Assembly: GCA_944325255.1 (NCBI GenBank)
Contig: CALUZH010000020.1
Coordinates: forward strand, 1-61,183
Source of the DNA: an uncultured Erysipelotrichaceae bacterium
GTDB lineage: Bacteria > Bacillota_I > Bacilli_A > Erysipelotrichales > Erysipelotrichaceae
Direction: 5' to 3'
DNA: 61,183 nt
This document shows positions 38,717-45,617 of this stretch, piece by piece. Made by a program: the position numbers and the translations under genes. Below the pieces are notes generated by a model. It worked only from the letters and a program-made list of their open reading frames with translations, searched no databases and had not been told where the DNA came from. Numbering within the stretch: position 1 is the stretch's first letter; the number at the start of each line of letters is the position of its first letter.

Positions 38717-41296
38717 ATGTTAGCGACAAAGTATGACAATCGGCAAGTTGAAGCCGGAAAGTATGAAAAATGGATTAAAAAGGGTTATTTTACAGCCGGT
38801 GACTTATCTAAAAGTCCTTATTGCATTGTGATTCCGCCGCCTAATGTTACCGGAAAATTGCATTTGGGACATGCGATGGATAATACCATGCAAGATATTT
38901 TGGCCCGATATCATCGTTTAAAAGGGGAAGATGTCTTATGGGTTCCGGGTATGGATCATGCCGGTATTGCCACCCAAGCCAAAGTTGAAGAGCGTTTGCG
39001 CAAGCAAGGCATTTCCCGTTATGACCTGGGAAGAGAAAAATTTGTTGAACAGGTATGGAAGTGGAAGGATGAATATGCTGCCATTATTCATGAGCAATGG
39101 CAAAAATTAGGCATTTCCGTTGATTATGATAAAGAACGCTTCACTTTGGATGAAGGTCTTTCTAAGGCTGTTACCAAAGTCTTTGTCACTTATTATAAAG
39201 AAGGGCTTATCTATCAGGGGAAAAGAATTATCAATTGGGATCCGGTTGCCAAGACAGCCCTAAGCAATGTCGAAGTCATCCACAAAGACGTGGAAGGGAA
39301 GATGTACTATTTTAAGTATGACGTTGTCGATTCCGATGAGACCTTCACGGTAGCTACAACCCGTCCGGAGACGATGTTTGGCGATGTTTGTGTTGTTGTC
39401 CATCCTGATGATGAAAACTTAAATCATTTAATCGGCAAAAAGTGTATTAATCCGGCTAATGGTGATATTTTACCGATTATCGGTGATAATTATATTGAAA
39501 TCGGTTTTGGTACCGGTGCTATGAAATGTACGCCGGCCCATGATCCTAATGACTATCAGATTGCCTTAAGACATCATCTTGAGATGCCTATTTGTATGAA
39601 TGAAGACGGTACGATGAATGAATTATGTGGCGAATTTGTCGGTATGGATCGCTTCGCTTGCCGCGAGGCTTTGGTCGCTAAAATAACTTCGGAAGGTCAC
39701 TTTGTCAAAGCGGAAAATATTGTTCATAGTGTCGGTCATTCGGAACGTACAGACTGTATGGTTGAACCTTATTTGTCCAAACAATGGTTTGTTAAGATGA
39801 AACCCTTGGCCGAAGCGGTTTTAAAAGCTCAACATAGTGCGGAAGATAAAATTAATTTTTATCCAAAACGCTTTGAGAAAACCTTCGAACAATGGCTTGA
39901 AAACATTGAGGATTGGTGTATTTCCCGTCAACTTTGGTGGGGACATCGCATTCCGGTTTGGTATCATAAGGAAACCGGGGCAATTTATTGTGAAGAAACG
40001 CCACCGGCAGATATCGAAAATTATGTGCAGGATGAAGATGTTCTCGATACCTGGTTCTCCAGTGCTTTGTGGCCGTTTTCTACCTTGGGCTGGCCTGAAG
40101 ATACAGCCTTATTAAAAAGATATTTCCCGACTTCGGTCATGGTTACGGGCTATGATATCCTCTTTTTCTGGGTTGCCCGTATGGCCTTCAGTGCCCGTCA
40201 TTTTTTGAATGATGTACCTTTTAAAGACTGTTTGATTCATGGCCTTATTCGTGATGAACAGGGCCGTAAGATGTCTAAATCCTTAGGCAACGGTATTGAT
40301 CCGATAGATATTATCGATAATTACGGATGTGATTCCTTGCGTCTTTTCCTTTTAACGAATGCGACACCGGGTTTAGATATGAATTTCTCCTTGACTAAAA
40401 TCCAATCGGCATGGAATTTTATCAATAAATTATGGAATGCTTCACGTTATTGTTTGATGAATATTGATGAAAACTTTAAGCGGGAAGAGCTTGAGCCAAG
40501 CAATCCGATTGATCATTGGATTCTTTCTCGCCTTAATCACACCATCAAACAGGTAAGCTTAAATCTTGATCGTTATGAATTCGGTATTGCCGGCAACGAA
40601 CTCATGAATTTTGTTTGGGATGATTTCTGCTCAGCTTATATTGAATTTACTAAGCCATTTTTAAATGATGAAAAGGAAAAAGCCCATACGCTTTCAATGC
40701 TGCTTACCGTACTGGAGGCAACCTTAAAACTTCTTCATCCTTTCGCACCTTTTGTCACTGAAGAAATTTATCAAAGCATTTATGACGAAGATCATAGTAT
40801 TACCATTTCTACATGGCCTGAAGCATTTAAGGGCGTTGATGAGACTAAAGCTAAGGCGATAGATGGTCTAAATGAAATCATCACAGCTGTAAGAGAACTT
40901 CGAAGCGAAAATGATCTTAAACCTTCCAAAGTTCTTGATGCGATAATTTCCACTGATATTGATATGGATGAAAGCTTAAAAGCGATTATCTATAAGATGT
41001 GTAAGGTCAATGTTGTTGAGAGAATTGAAGGCGAGACCTTGGTCAGACCGATTGGTTCCGGTAAATTAATTTTTGATCTTGCGGCGATTGTTGATAAAGA
41101 AAAAGAGATTGCCAAACTATTAAAAGAAAAAGAATTCTATGCCAATGAAATAAATCGTGGTGAGAAGATGTTGTCAAATCCGTCTTTTATCGCTAAGGCA
41201 CCGGAGTCTAAGGTCGCTGAAGAAAAATCTAAATTAGCTAAGAATAAAAAGTCTTATGAAACAATCATGACTAAATTAAAGGAATTGGAGGCCTAA
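38717..41296 (+). CDS. valS: Valyl-tRNA synthetase
   Basis: This class I synthetase of 859 residues charges tRNA-Val. The HIGH motif is PNVTGKLHLGHAMD (about 42), the editing domain includes TVATTRPETMFGD, and the KMSKS motif is GRKMSKSLGNG. The C-terminus is a coiled-coil tRNA-binding arm (KEKEIAKLLKEKEFY). The start is the ATG nine bases after GGAGG; a TTG one codon upstream is possible. Expression is governed by the upstream T-box. Confidence 0.96.
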   Translation: MLATKYDNRQVEAGKYEKWIKKGYFTAGDLSKSPYCIVIPPPNVTGKLHLGHAMDNTMQDILARYHRLKGEDVLWVPGMDHAGIATQAKVEERLRKQGISRYDLGREKFVEQVWKWKDEYAAIIHEQWQKLGISVDYDKERFTLDEGLSKAVTKVFVTYYKEGLIYQGKRIINWDPVAKTALSNVEVIHKDVEGKMYYFKYDVVDSDETFTVATTRPETMFGDVCVVVHPDDENLNHLIGKKCINPANGDILPIIGDNYIEIGFGTGAMKCTPAHDPNDYQIALRHHLEMPICMNEDGTMNELCGEFVGMDRFACREALVAKITSEGHFVKAENIVHSVGHSERTDCMVEPYLSKQWFVKMKPLAEAVLKAQHSAEDKINFYPKRFEKTFEQWLENIEDWCISRQLWWGHRIPVWYHKETGAIYCEETPPADIENYVQDEDVLDTWFSSALWPFSTLGWPEDTALLKRYFPTSVMVTGYDILFFWVARMAFSARHFLNDVPFKDCLIHGLIRDEQGRKMSKSLGNGIDPIDIIDNYGCDSLRLFLLTNATPGLDMNFSLTKIQSAWNFINKLWNASRYCLMNIDENFKREELEPSNPIDHWILSRLNHTIKQVSLNLDRYEFGIAGNELMNFVWDDFCSAYIEFTKPFLNDEKEKAHTLSMLLTVLEATLKLLHPFAPFVTEEIYQSIYDEDHSITISTWPEAFKGVDETKAKAIDGLNEIITAVRELRSENDLKPSKVLDAIISTDIDMDESLKAIIYKMCKVNVVERIEGETLVRPIGSGKLIFDLAAIVDKEKEIAKLLKEKEFYANEINRGEKMLSNPSFIAKAPESKVAEEKSKLAKNKKSYETIMTKLKELEA

Positions 41297-41298
41297 TG

Positions 41299-42249
41299 AT
41301 GAAAAAAAGCACAAAAACTTTAATTGCCCTTGCCGGTATCGGTGCTGTAGGGGCACATGTATCTTTAGAAACTATTGCCCGTCTTTCTTTTAATGATTTG
41401 TTTATTGTCGATGAACGTTATCTTCAAGCCGATCTTTTTACTATTCTGCCAACTGAAGACTTACAACAAAAGTATCTTTCGCAAATTGATGAACAGGTTG
41501 ACTGGTATAAGGATGTTCCAAAAGAAAATATCAAAATTAAAAGTTATGATGGTTTAAATCTTGATGCCGCCTTGCTTAAGGCCAATGATGAGCATAGATA
41601 TATCATTTTGGCCCATGGTTTTAACACCGATCGCTATATTTTATTAAAACAGGCCTATGAATTCTTTCATCGCGGTTTTAATGTCTTGCTTATTGACCAA
41701 AGGGCTTATGGCAAATCTGAGGGCAAATATACAACTTTCGGTTTTAAGGAACATTTAGATTTGATCCAATGGATTGATTATCTGGTCAAAGCCGATGATG
41801 AGGCTAAGATTGGTTTATATGGGGTATCGATGGGTGCTGCAACGGTGATGATGGCTTTAGGTACCAAACTTGATAAGCATGTAGTTTTCGCTATTGAAGA
41901 TTCCGGTTACAGTGATTTGAAAGAATTATTTAAAGTCCGTATTGAAAAGAAGTTCGGTATTATATCACCGCTTGCCATTGCCTACTTAAATCGTTATGTA
42001 AAAGCGACATTAGGTTTTGATTTAGGTGAAGTATCACCATATAAAGCTTTAGAGAATAATGATATCCCTATTTGCATTGTTCATGCCAAGGGTGATGATG
42101 TTGTACCTTATTCCATGGCTAAAGAGCTCTATCATGCCAATCATGGTAAGAAAGTATTTTATCCTTTAGATACTAATGTTCATGCCTATGCCTGTTATGA
42201 AGATGATTATTTCGATAATCTGGAGACCTTCTATCAACGCTATATCTAG
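41299..42249 (+). CDS. Membrane-anchored alpha/beta hydrolase
   Basis: This protein of about 316 residues has an N-terminal signal anchor (about 5-25) and an alpha/beta hydrolase domain. The oxyanion region is ILAHGFNTDRY, the nucleophile elbow is GVSMGAAT, the acid lies in HAKGDDVVPYSMA, and the histidine is in NVHAYACYED. It resembles YqkD-type serine aminopeptidase or lipase-like hydrolases; the substrate is unknown. The second of two adjacent ATGs (41299) has better spacing from GGAGG than the one at 41296, which overlaps the valS stop. Confidence 0.82.
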   Translation: MKKSTKTLIALAGIGAVGAHVSLETIARLSFNDLFIVDERYLQADLFTILPTEDLQQKYLSQIDEQVDWYKDVPKENIKIKSYDGLNLDAALLKANDEHRYIILAHGFNTDRYILLKQAYEFFHRGFNVLLIDQRAYGKSEGKYTTFGFKEHLDLIQWIDYLVKADDEAKIGLYGVSMGAATVMMALGTKLDKHVVFAIEDSGYSDLKELFKVRIEKKFGIISPLAIAYLNRYVKATLGFDLGEVSPYKALENNDIPICIVHAKGDDVVPYSMAKELYHANHGKKVFYPLDTNVHAYACYEDDYFDNLETFYQRYI

Positions 42250-42255
42250 AACCTC

Positions 42256-42282
42256 GACCGGCAAGTTGCCGGTCTTTTTTTG
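42256..42282 (+). terminator. Terminator after the valS-hydrolase transcript
   Basis: GACCGGC / GCCGGTC with an AAGTT loop is followed by seven T. It separates the housekeeping transcript from the secreted-protein gene that follows. Confidence 0.92.
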
Positions 42283-42285
42283 GCC

Positions 42286-42315
42286 TTGAAATTGAGACGG
42301 GGGGGGGTGTAAAAT
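42286..42315 (+). promoter_or_regulatory. Promoter with a nine-G tract in its spacer
   Basis: TTGAAA (42286-42291) and TAAAAT (42310-42315) are 18 bases apart, and the spacer contains G at 42299-42307 without interruption. Nothing else nearby can serve as promoter for the secreted protein. Gain or loss of one G would change the spacer to 17 or 19, so the tract could tune or switch transcription by slippage. Confidence 0.6.
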
Positions 42316-42344
42316 TGATTCATACAAAGGGAGATGTATGAATT

Positions 42345-43613
42345 ATGAAAAAGTTTATATCTGTATGCTTAATTCTTTTCTTATCACTTGGCCTATTTGT
42401 TTCGGTTAGTGCCGAAGAAGGTAAAGAGATAACATTTACTGAGTTTATCGAAACTATTGAAACAAACGGTGAATTTGATGGCCAAGGTGCCACTGTAAGA
42501 TGGTCGCCGGATGAAGATGTAGTAATCGTAGACCGGGTTCAAAAACCAAATGCCCAATATCAGATAGCTAGCGGAAAAGATTTTGATATTGTAATTAAAA
42601 ATACTACCTTTATTTATGATCCAGATGATATTCCTAATCATAGTGACGGATGGAGTGGCCATGATAAAAATTGGACAAAAGAACAAATTCGCAATGCGGA
42701 ATTTCAATTTCTTAATACCGGCGATGTCACAGTTGAAAATTGTACTTTTGAAAAGATTATTGTAAGTCCTTATGGTAAGGGCAATGATAGCGAAAGTAAT
42801 AGTGACAGAAACTTTACGGTTAAGAATTCTACTTTTTCTAATGTCTATAATGCTTATGCCTTAAAAGACATTTATACCGCAAATGCATTAATTGAAGGTA
42901 ATACTTTTACAAATTGTGGGGCTGCGATTTATTTTGAAGGTGGTGTCGAACGTGGAACAATAGTAATTAAAGATAATAAATTTGATAATATTGATACCAA
43001 TGCTGCTGATGGCAAGGCTGGTACACGAGGCCTTATTCAATTTAGTGCTGCCTTTGTTGTTACGGATAATACTTCCTTTACTTTTGAAGGAAGTGAAGTT
43101 AGCGGCAATTTATTCAAATCTTCAAGCGGCGATAAAAATAATTTAATGGGCATCAGGCAAATTTCCCAATTGCATGGCTTGATGATTCAAAATTGGACTT
43201 TAGGTGAAGCTTTCTCTTTACATGTTGAAGGTGAAAACCTTTCACTCCCTGATATGCCAAGTGGTGAAAATGAAAAGGGAACATATACTTTTATGGGTTG
43301 GGCATCTGTGGCTGACTATAATGGTCCAACCGATATAACTAATACCGATAATTTCCTTAAGGCAGAACAATCCGGTTTATTAAATCAATACTATTATGCC
43401 GTTTGGGAATTTGTACCAAATGAAGAAGAGAAACCGGTTGAAGAAGAAACTGTTCCTTCGATTTCCTGTGCCGGGGAAAAGGATAAAAACTGTGACGGTG
43501 TTGTAACCTGTGATGAAGAAATGGGTGAAGGTTGGACTTGGAACAACGACAAGGGAGTATGTGAATATAATGGCACTTCTTCATATGTTGTCGTAAATAC
43601 TGCGGTTAAATAG
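42345..43613 (+). CDS. Secreted right-handed beta-helix surface protein
   Basis: This exported protein of 422 residues has a Sec signal peptide (1-23, cleavage after VSA). The central part (about 60-260) has repeated parallel beta-helix rungs of the pectate-lyase-like kind: VENCTFEKI, VKNSTFSNV, IEGNTFTNC, IKDNKFDNI. An InlB-type repeat-like segment follows (about 300-360, MGWASVADYNG...YYAVWEF), then an acidic linker and a Cys-rich end (CAGEKDKNCDGVVTC). The C-terminus NTAVK recalls the PNTG-like tails of surface proteins but has no membrane anchor after it. Carbohydrate binding or adhesion is inferred. Its promoter contains a G tract. Confidence 0.75.
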   Translation: MKKFISVCLILFLSLGLFVSVSAEEGKEITFTEFIETIETNGEFDGQGATVRWSPDEDVVIVDRVQKPNAQYQIASGKDFDIVIKNTTFIYDPDDIPNHSDGWSGHDKNWTKEQIRNAEFQFLNTGDVTVENCTFEKIIVSPYGKGNDSESNSDRNFTVKNSTFSNVYNAYALKDIYTANALIEGNTFTNCGAAIYFEGGVERGTIVIKDNKFDNIDTNAADGKAGTRGLIQFSAAFVVTDNTSFTFEGSEVSGNLFKSSSGDKNNLMGIRQISQLHGLMIQNWTLGEAFSLHVEGENLSLPDMPSGENEKGTYTFMGWASVADYNGPTDITNTDNFLKAEQSGLLNQYYYAVWEFVPNEEEKPVEEETVPSISCAGEKDKNCDGVVTCDEEMGEGWTWNNDKGVCEYNGTSSYVVVNTAVK

Positions 43614-43656: not shown

Positions 43657-43850
43657 GTAAACGTTGAATAAGACACGATGTTTTAAGCTTTGATTTAGAG
43701 AGACAGCGGGTGGTGAGAGCTGTTGAGAAACTTAGATCGTTACTACTTAGGAGTTGCTTCTTAATCGATAGCCGTTAACTCGCGTTAAGAGTAATAGTTA
43801 AAAGTAAAGGTGGTACCGCGCTTTGGCGCCCTTGGTAGCACCTTTTATTT
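43657..43850 (+). promoter_or_regulatory. T-box riboswitch controlling thrS (specifier ACU, Thr)
   Basis: The distal stem I shows AGAGAGACAGCGGGTGGTGAG, followed by TTACTACTTAGGAGTTG. ACT (43745-43747) stands two bases before GGAG, the same geometry as the valS leader, and reads as a threonine codon. The T-box AGGTGGTACCGCG lies at about 43808-43820, and a terminator with T tail ends near 43853. Uncharged tRNA-Thr would activate thrS and probably the genes behind it. Confidence 0.92.
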
Positions 43851-43871: not shown

Positions 43872-45617
43872 ATGATTAACATTAAAGAAGATGAAAAATT
43901 GTCTGTGATGAATCACAGTTGCGCTCATCTTTTGGCCCAGGCAGTATCCCATCTTTATCCAAATGCTAAGTTTTGGGTGGGTCCGGTTATTACCGATGGA
44001 TTCTATTATGATATGGACTTAGGTGATGAAGTTATTAGGGAAGAAGATTTGCCTAAAATTGAAAAAGAGATGAAAAAGATTGCCAAGGATGGTAAACGTA
44101 TTGTTCGTCATGAAATTTCTAAAGCCGAAGCCTTAGAAATGTTTAAGGATGATCCTTATAAGCTTGATTTGATTGGCCATATGGATGAAGACAATACGGT
44201 TATTTCCTGTTATACGCAAGGGGACTTTACCGATCTTTGTCGTGGTCCGCATGTTGATAGTGTTAAGGAACTAAAATATTTTAAGCTATTAAAAGTTTCC
44301 GGTGCATATTGGAAAAATGATGCCAATAATAAGATGTTACAAAGAGTTTATGGCATTTGTTTTGATTCGCAAGAAGCCCTTGATGAGTATTTATATTTCC
44401 TAGAGGAAGCTAAAAAAAGAGATCATAAGAAATTGGGTAAGGAACTTGAGCTTTTTATGATTTCCGAATATGCTCCGGGTATGCCGTTCTTTTTACCGAA
44501 AGGAATGATTTTAAGAAATATTCTCGAGAATTTTTGGTATGACGAACATACCAAGGAAGGTTATCAATTTGTCAAGACGCCGATTATGATGTCCAGAGAA
44601 TTATGGGAGACTTCGGGACATTGGGATAATTATCGGGAAAATATGTATACTACTAAAGTTGATGATCGTATTTTCGCTATTAAACCGATGAATTGTCCGG
44701 GTGGTATTTTAGTTTATAAGAATGGTCTTCATTCCTATAAAGATTTGCCGATTCGTTTAGGTGAACTGGGACTCGTTCATCGTCATGAGGCCAGTGGTGC
44801 CTTAAATGGTCTTTTCCGGGTTCGCAGTTTTACCCAAGATGATGCTCATATCTTTATGCGGGAAGATCAAATTGAAGAAGAAGTTGTTCGCTTGATTAAT
44901 TTTATTGACCGTATTTATTCATTGTTTGGTCTAAGTTATTCAATTGAACTTTCAACGCGTCCGTTAGATCATTATATCGGCGAGATTGCAGTTTGGGATA
45001 AAGCCGAAAAGGCTCTTGAAGATGCTTGCCATGCCGCTGGCAAAGAATGCAAGATTAATCCGGGAGACGGGGCATTCTATGGTCCGAAATTGGACTTTCA
45101 TATCCATGATTCTTTAGGTCGAGTATGGCAATGCGGTACCATTCAATTGGATATGAATTTGCCGGAACGCTTTGATCTTCATTATATTGATGCTGACGGC
45201 AGCAAAAAACGGCCTTTGATGTTGCATCGCGTAATTTATGGTTCAATTGAACGTTTTATGGGTATCTTGATTGAGTACTATGGCGGTGCCTTCCCGTTAT
45301 GGCTGGCTCCTGAACAGATTCGTATTGTTCCGGTACATCATGAAAATCATTTGGCTTATGCCAATAAGGTAAAAGAGGCATTAGAAGCTAAGGGCTTAAG
45401 AGTTACGGTTGATTCCCGCAATGAAAAATTAGGTTATCGGATTCGGGAAGCTCAAACCCATAAGATTCCTGTCCAATTGGTTGTCGGGGATGGAGAAATG
45501 CAAGATAATACGGTAAATATTAGACGTTTTGCATCTAAAGAAAATGAAGTGATGAATTTGGATGTGGCAGTTGATAAATTTGTAAAAGAAGTTGAGGAAA
45601 AACAATATGTCCATTAA
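43872..45617 (+). CDS. thrS: Threonyl-tRNA synthetase lacking the TGS domain
   Basis: This class II synthetase has 581 residues. It begins directly with the editing domain (NHSCAHLLAQAVSHL near residue 15 and CRGPHV later), so the 60-residue N-terminal TGS domain of typical bacterial ThrRS is missing. Catalytic motifs follow: KPMNCPGGILVYK, motif 2 LVHRHEASGALNGLFRVRSF, FTQDDAHIF, and motif 3 HRVIYGSIERF. The anticodon-binding domain is complete (to the C-terminus). The ATG at 43872 is preceded by GGAAGGGA; a longer frame would read into the terminator. Such shortened ThrRS occur in Mollicutes-related lineages. Confidence 0.94.
   Translation: MINIKEDEKLSVMNHSCAHLLAQAVSHLYPNAKFWVGPVITDGFYYDMDLGDEVIREEDLPKIEKEMKKIAKDGKRIVRHEISKAEALEMFKDDPYKLDLIGHMDEDNTVISCYTQGDFTDLCRGPHVDSVKELKYFKLLKVSGAYWKNDANNKMLQRVYGICFDSQEALDEYLYFLEEAKKRDHKKLGKELELFMISEYAPGMPFFLPKGMILRNILENFWYDEHTKEGYQFVKTPIMMSRELWETSGHWDNYRENMYTTKVDDRIFAIKPMNCPGGILVYKNGLHSYKDLPIRLGELGLVHRHEASGALNGLFRVRSFTQDDAHIFMREDQIEEEVVRLINFIDRIYSLFGLSYSIELSTRPLDHYIGEIAVWDKAEKALEDACHAAGKECKINPGDGAFYGPKLDFHIHDSLGRVWQCGTIQLDMNLPERFDLHYIDADGSKKRPLMLHRVIYGSIERFMGILIEYYGGAFPLWLAPEQIRIVPVHHENHLAYANKVKEALEAKGLRVTVDSRNEKLGYRIREAQTHKIPVQLVVGDGEMQDNTVNIRRFASKENEVMNLDVAVDKFVKEVEEKQYVH

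Follow-up and report, generated by a model that had tools for sequence, protein, structure and literature searches.

A run of nine guanines (G9) in the promoter of an exported-protein gene from an uncultured Erysipelotrichaceae bacterium appears to be a contingency locus, at which poly-G slippage would produce transcriptional phase variation of the type known from porA and tp0126; we put the probability of this reading at roughly 0.82. The tract lies in a 61,183-nucleotide stretch of DNA, the whole of which we call the window, and the initial annotation of that stretch had proposed one slippage-controlled switch at this position. The slippage reading is supported by four similar paralogs, by recurrence across the order with no matches for the control pattern, by differences in tract length between orthologs and by missing MutS and MutL. 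The idea of a single locus did not survive and is replaced by a gene family of switches: judged by sequence, this is a multi-gene contingency system and not an isolated switch.

Table 1 Features around the G9 tract (positions in the window)
Feature	Position	Strand	Details
Upstream alpha/beta-hydrolase gene	41296–42249		Identity by Pfam
Intrinsic terminator stem	42256–42274	+	8 pairs, 6 G-C; T-rich tail, T run reaching 42281
-35 hexamer	42286–42291	+	TTGAAA
Promoter spacer	42292–42309	+	TTGAGAC + G9 + TG, 18 nt
G9 tract within spacer	42299–42307	+	Sole homopolymer of at least 8 in the window
-10 hexamer	42310–42315	+	TAAAAT
Inverted repeat around likely start site	42316–42345	+	11-bp arms TGATTCATACA / TGTATGAATTA; fold -10.4 kcal/mol, z -6.5
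Ribosome-binding site	42329–42333	+	GGGAG, in loop of inverted repeat
Exported-protein gene	42345–43613	+	Product 422 aa; signal peptide, beta-helix-like middle, conserved C-terminal domain
C-terminal domain	43464–43610	+	CAGEKDKNCDGVVTCDEEMGEGWTWNN...VVNTAVK, ~50 aa; common to 7 genes in the genome

The promoter of the window gene

All parts of the annotated promoter, namely TTGAAA, an 18-nt gap with nine G's and TAAAAT, were confirmed at 42286–42315 (Table 1). The accompanying claim that the window holds no other long homopolymer was also borne out: the second-longest G run has six, and only about 0.02 runs of nine or more G's would be expected in the window under Markov models of order 2–4. 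A promoter scan of 42150–42500 returned TTGAAA-18-TAAAAT as its sole match (10 of 12 consensus positions), but shuffled sequence yields on average 1.3 matches of equal quality, so the consensus match by itself proves nothing. The terminator (GACCGGCAAGTTGCCGGTC-T7, 42256–42281) closes the upstream alpha/beta-hydrolase gene and insulates the exported-protein gene from transcription coming from upstream, and because only about 60 nt separate its end at 42281 from the start of the open reading frame at 42345, the promoter must be in that gap.

Two features of this locus count against the switch reading. The first is the -35 hexamer: the paralogs described below have TTGACA, a stronger element than TTGAAA, and when the promoters are aligned, the TTGACAC of the paralogs matches TTGAGAC of the window (42292–42298) and not TTGAAA, so that the register of the window promoter is shifted. 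The second is the ortholog of the window gene in a congener (58% identical), where the run is only G6 and the surroundings of the -10 hexamer differ; retention of the tract is thus not universal.

We considered a conserved 5′ hairpin, formed by the inverted repeat, as part of the mechanism and rejected it. The hairpin is strong in the window gene and in two paralogs, but it is absent in the congener's ortholog and modest on average (mean z -0.65 compared with -0.03 in ordinary promoters, p 0.002), so it is treated here as an aside. Palindromes also lie 3′ of the -10 hexamer in paralogs C8 and C10a, and a mini-ORF (ATGTATGAATTATGA, 42334–42348) overlaps the start codon of the exported-protein gene.

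Poly-G promoters in the genome and the order

In the genome that contains the window (G000, 1.40 Mb, with the window on contig C20), there are seven G runs of at least eight, six of which are G9 or G10; 0.4–0.5 runs of nine or more would be expected under Markov models of order 2–4. Five of these six sit in the spacers of promoters that precede genes with the C-terminal domain, one each on contigs C8, C20 (the window) and C28 and two on contig C10, and at all five promoters, that of the window gene included, identifiable -35 and -10 hexamers stand on either side of the homopolymer. The -35 hexamer is a perfect TTGACA at four of the five. Three promoters read TTGACAC-G9-T-N5-TTTTARAAT, or a close variant, with a 19-nt spacer; TTGACAC-G9-TNNNNNTTTTARAAT or a close variant was found on contigs C8, C10 and C28 and on C44 and C59 of the congener (G001). 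One contig C10 promoter is TTGACAAATGAAC-G10-TAAAAT. The spacers of the four paralogs are 17 nt, in this last case, and 19, 19 and 19 nt, compared with 18 nt in the window. The sixth tract, a run of ten C's in the coding strand at G000:C24:60091 (L054), falls within the gene for a PucR-type regulator, whose coding sequence is in different frames before and after the tract; it is a candidate for phase switching of this regulator at the level of translation.

The same layout recurs across the order, which was identified as Erysipelotrichales from a stretch in genome G043 that is 100% identical to Massilimicrobiota timonensis. Among 316 genomes of this order, TTGACA-N6-14-G8-TANNNT gave 31 matches, spread over 20 genomes from 15 genera, whereas the reversed pattern gave 0. 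In 96 genomes of the family, the loosely flanked pattern TTGAC-N1-10-G7, which sets no constraint 3′ of the G run, gave about 24 distinct matches compared with 4 for its reverse. All 30 distinct spacers that were read are 17–21 nt long with 8–12 G's, although 14–22 nt were allowed (p about 4e-8 against a uniform distribution), and spacers of 18–20 nt were commonest among the matches listed. By the genome counts, Markov models and reversed-pattern controls, the tract is longer than chance and non-randomly placed. Downstream products look exported at 53 of 85 loci from genome contigs, compared with a background of 21.5%, and within the order in 13 of 27 cases compared with 8 of 58. The layout was also found, among the matches listed for named genomes and without a control, in Clostridia, Bacilli, spirochaetes, Coriobacteria, Saccharibacteria and others. 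No report of poly-G spacer switches in Erysipelotrichales was found in the literature searched.

These placements bear on the possibility that mutation alone made the G run, as a by-product of a GnT hotspot extending into its 3′ T together with loss of mismatch repair, and that the run is tolerated without regulatory function. A T does stand directly 3′ of every tract in the promoter family, the T-to-G rate at GnT motifs is elevated more than 1000-fold (PMC12344412), and MutS and MutL are missing from this genome. Neutral growth would scatter the tracts, yet five of the six in the genome lie between the -35 and -10 hexamers of one gene family, and the loosely flanked pattern still returned about 24 distinct loci against 4 in the reversed control. 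Spacer lengths also cluster at 17–21 nt, and some tract-bearing genomes (G034, G065 and G126) have retained MutS or MutL. We consider a by-product improbable and continue with slippage-controlled switching as the preferred reading.

Tract length, mismatch repair and other repeat devices

With one genome per species, we compared tract length between orthologs of different species. The promoters G000:C28 and G001:C44 have G9 and G10, with 147 of 150 downstream positions identical; those in G003 and G258 have G11 and G10 (145 of 150 identical downstream and 59 of 61 upstream); and those in G065 and G106 have G12 and G10 in flanks that are about 70% identical (105 of 152 columns). Tract length thus differs in all three orthologous promoter pairs, a count to be read knowing that homopolymer lengths can be miscounted by assembly. 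In the first of these pairs, the promoter and signal-peptide region is 98% identical while the DNA upstream has diverged. Set against the 58% identity of the window-gene orthologs, this suggests that a promoter/signal-peptide cassette was transferred between the two species.

The uncultured Bacilli MAG G126 has about 36 tracts of nine or more G's. All 20 of the paralogous genes sampled there (L201–L220) share the promoter TTGACA-N9-G9/10/11-TATG or a one-base variant; the tract is G10 in 17 of them and G9, G9 and G11 in the other three, in near-identical flanks. By sequence, these paralogous short surface-type proteins are a candidate for a large antigenic-variation repertoire. The same promoters raise the question of whether the tract is a fixed promoter element, either a constant weak promoter or one bound by a regulator so that the family is a regulon, with no switching by length. 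Exactly G10 in 17 of 20 promoters looks like one preferred length, and the flanking -35 and -10 motifs are similar across paralogs. The three exceptions in near-identical flanks speak against this, as do the orthologs that differ in tract length within conserved flanks; moreover, only the -35 and -10 hexamers are shared around the tract, with no further motif. A fixed element is accordingly rated unlikely, and a tract whose length switches is favoured.

Mismatch repair loss raises mononucleotide slippage. Neither MutS (PF01624) nor MutL (PF01119) was detected in G000 or its congener G001, in searches that found each gene in 11 of 14 control genomes, and both were also undetected in genomes sampled from genera g3, g61 and g63; MutS was found in 251 of the 316 genomes of the order. 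With both proteins missing, the slippage rate should rise. Across the order, the link between poly-G promoters and MutS absence is weak: MutS is absent from 8 of 20 genomes with poly-G promoters compared with 57 of 296 others (p 0.04, uncorrected for phylogeny). Because the correlation is weak only, we rejected the idea that poly-G promoters arise from mismatch repair loss.

Relatives of the window gene in two sister genera stand behind a different repeat. The ortholog in genus g34 (48% identical) has no G tract and carries (AAGC)11 upstream, and several domain genes in genus g61 carry (AAGC)n, (AGCC)n, (AGTC)n or (AGAGC)n. In both genera the array is inside a short leader ORF that is followed by a terminator, directly before the gene. 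Leader loci of this kind (L299–L308 and L343–L353; genomes G282, G109, G070 and G034) precede window-gene relatives and other secreted-protein genes. The module runs from a short ORF through 8–24 tetranucleotide copies, a conserved TATGTAATAGAGAACTTATTCTT-like segment and a terminator to a ribosome-binding site, and in one locus the pentanucleotide AGAGC takes the place of the tetranucleotide. By analogy, these modules look like a phase-variable attenuator of the Streptococcus gallolyticus Pil1 type. That the same protein family is found under another repeat type suggests selection for variable expression of the proteins with the C-terminal domain, irrespective of the repeat.

The leader repeats and terminators of the sister genera could also be taken to mean that another phase-variation device, a DNA inversion or an SSR attenuator, controls the window promoter and that its G run is incidental. 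However, there is no tandem array near the window gene, and the only terminator is upstream of the promoter, so leader attenuation is excluded for the window; flanking inverted repeats are limited to one weak, imperfect 12-mer pair, and an invertible promoter was rejected. We regard control by such a device as highly improbable, which leaves the G tract itself as the favoured switch. More broadly, there is perhaps an even chance that in this mismatch-repair-deficient lineage of Erysipelotrichales the exported family with the new C-terminal domain is under repeat switches as a class, with lineages swapping the type of switch (a poly-G spacer in the window genus, a leader-repeat attenuator in two sister genera) and each cell displaying a random combination of surface proteins.

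Mechanism, product and comparison with known switches

The proposed mechanism is anchored in the observed promoter anatomy, the family- and order-wide placement of the tracts, the change in tract length between species and the absence of mismatch repair. During replication, slipped-strand mispairing within a clone would add or remove single G's, and each change would shift the -35 hexamer relative to the -10 hexamer by one base pair. Few spacer lengths are compatible with RNA polymerase holoenzyme. On established promoter physiology and the examples of porA and tp0126, transcription of the exported-protein gene would therefore go up or down with spacer length, and the 18-nt spacer of the window promoter would represent an intermediate state. 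If 17 nt is the optimum here, as the analogy with tp0126 would have it, the G10 promoter on contig C10 would be in the ON state, the window gene would have intermediate activity, and little transcription would come from the remaining three; since spacers of 18–20 nt are commonest among the loci, the ON length here may differ from 17. Since the equivalent spacers of the four paralogs measure 17, 19, 19 and 19 nt, the set of family members on display should vary from cell to cell. Surface exposure of the products and a benefit to the cell are further steps that we infer.

The initial annotation had described the product as an exported protein with beta-helix rungs. Export is upheld by a signal peptide at about residues 1–24, and signal peptides are present in the paralogs too; together with the export-signal enrichment across loci, they mark the controlled product as exported, with a putative surface location. 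The rungs are weakly backed. In an AlphaFold2 single-sequence model (mean pLDDT 46), the middle region has repeated short strands resembling a parallel beta-helix, and the Foldseek matches, to pectate lyases and epimerases, were non-significant (best E 0.025). The model thus points weakly to a beta-helix, and we refrained from naming a fold from it, as it is too weak for confidence. The window protein has no Pfam or NCBIfam family above cut-off, including the Pectate_lyase_5 adhesive domain (PF20585), and a PDB sequence search gave no match. The paralog on contig C28 is above the Pfam cut-off for PF20585, the ‘pectate lyase-like adhesive domain’, and the window product is probably adhesive.

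The C-terminal domain is defined by the invariants D-x-N-C-D-G-x-x-x-C-x-E and G-x-G-W-x-W and by a third Cys. No Pfam or NCBIfam model reaches cut-off for it, with weak EF-hand resemblance only, and it is present in 17 of the 316 genomes, in 5 genera of the order. Two of the seven copies in the genome, C10:106924 and C21:23445, look decayed, the former carrying a stop codon in its signal peptide. A neighbour of a poly-G gene, G000:C8:3844-6000 (L049), ends in ...YIPVPNTAAK, which resembles the ...VVNTAVK tail of the poly-G family; the Cys domain is absent there. The tail common to both may be a surface-sorting tail.

Neisseria and Treponema supply the textbook examples of poly-G spacer switches, and a poly-C tract is known from opc of Neisseria meningitidis. 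In Treponema pallidum, poly-G tracts are found in the promoters of surface protein genes with several paralogs (tp0126, tprE/G/J/L); in tp0126, which encodes an OmpW homolog, the tract is between the -35 and -10 hexamers and the optimum is 17 nt (PMC7864442). Those products are spirochaete outer-membrane proteins; the family described here belongs to a Gram-positive order, is exported and beta-helix-like, has a distinct C-terminal domain and is predicted from sequence to be switched. By the account given in the same source, porA of N. meningitidis resembles the window promoter in having a G tract between -35 and -10, and its spacer length sets transcription (PMC7864442); porA is a single proteobacterial locus, unlike the five loci of one family, with MutS and MutL undetected, described here.

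Among Bacillota, one-nucleotide changes in an intergenic homopolymer alter the transcript level of a surface protein at Spy1336/R28-Spy1337 of Streptococcus pyogenes (PMC7098570), although that tract is poly-T at a single locus between a surface-protein gene and a regulator gene. In S. gallolyticus pil1, GCAGA repeats in a leader peptide were shown experimentally to control a terminator (PMC3894217). This SSR device resembles the g61 and g34 leaders upstream of the gene's relatives; the window has neither its frameshift in a leader ORF nor its terminator. In the gut Gram-positive Bifidobacterium breve, G10/G11 tracts of a pilus switch slip at high frequency, and G-tracts in promoter spacers are mentioned too, but the tracts studied there are intragenic and act by frameshift (PMC9187656). 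The recurrence of poly-G spacers in a Gram-positive gut order, on a defined multi-gene family of putative surface proteins and in a genome with no MutS or MutL, suggests that gut commensals vary their surfaces stochastically through simple repeats more often than has been recorded.

Three minor observations were made alongside. By eye, a leader resembling a T-box (AAGGTGGTACCGCGC) can be seen at window positions 43680–43850, ahead of thrS, which begins at 43873; this region had no Rfam match at the gathering threshold. The uncultured Bacilli MAG G122 (L221–L236) has many copies of the identical context CTCCTAACTCTAGGAATAGCAAGTGTGATCCT-G10-TATAATTTATAGAAG, which looks intragenic, in repeated membrane-segment coding sequence. 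Near the 5′ ends of coding regions at G034:C2:10610 and G034:C26:22963 (L065 and L064) lie a G10 and a G9 tract, respectively; the two sides of each tract are in different frames, and both are candidate frameshift switches.
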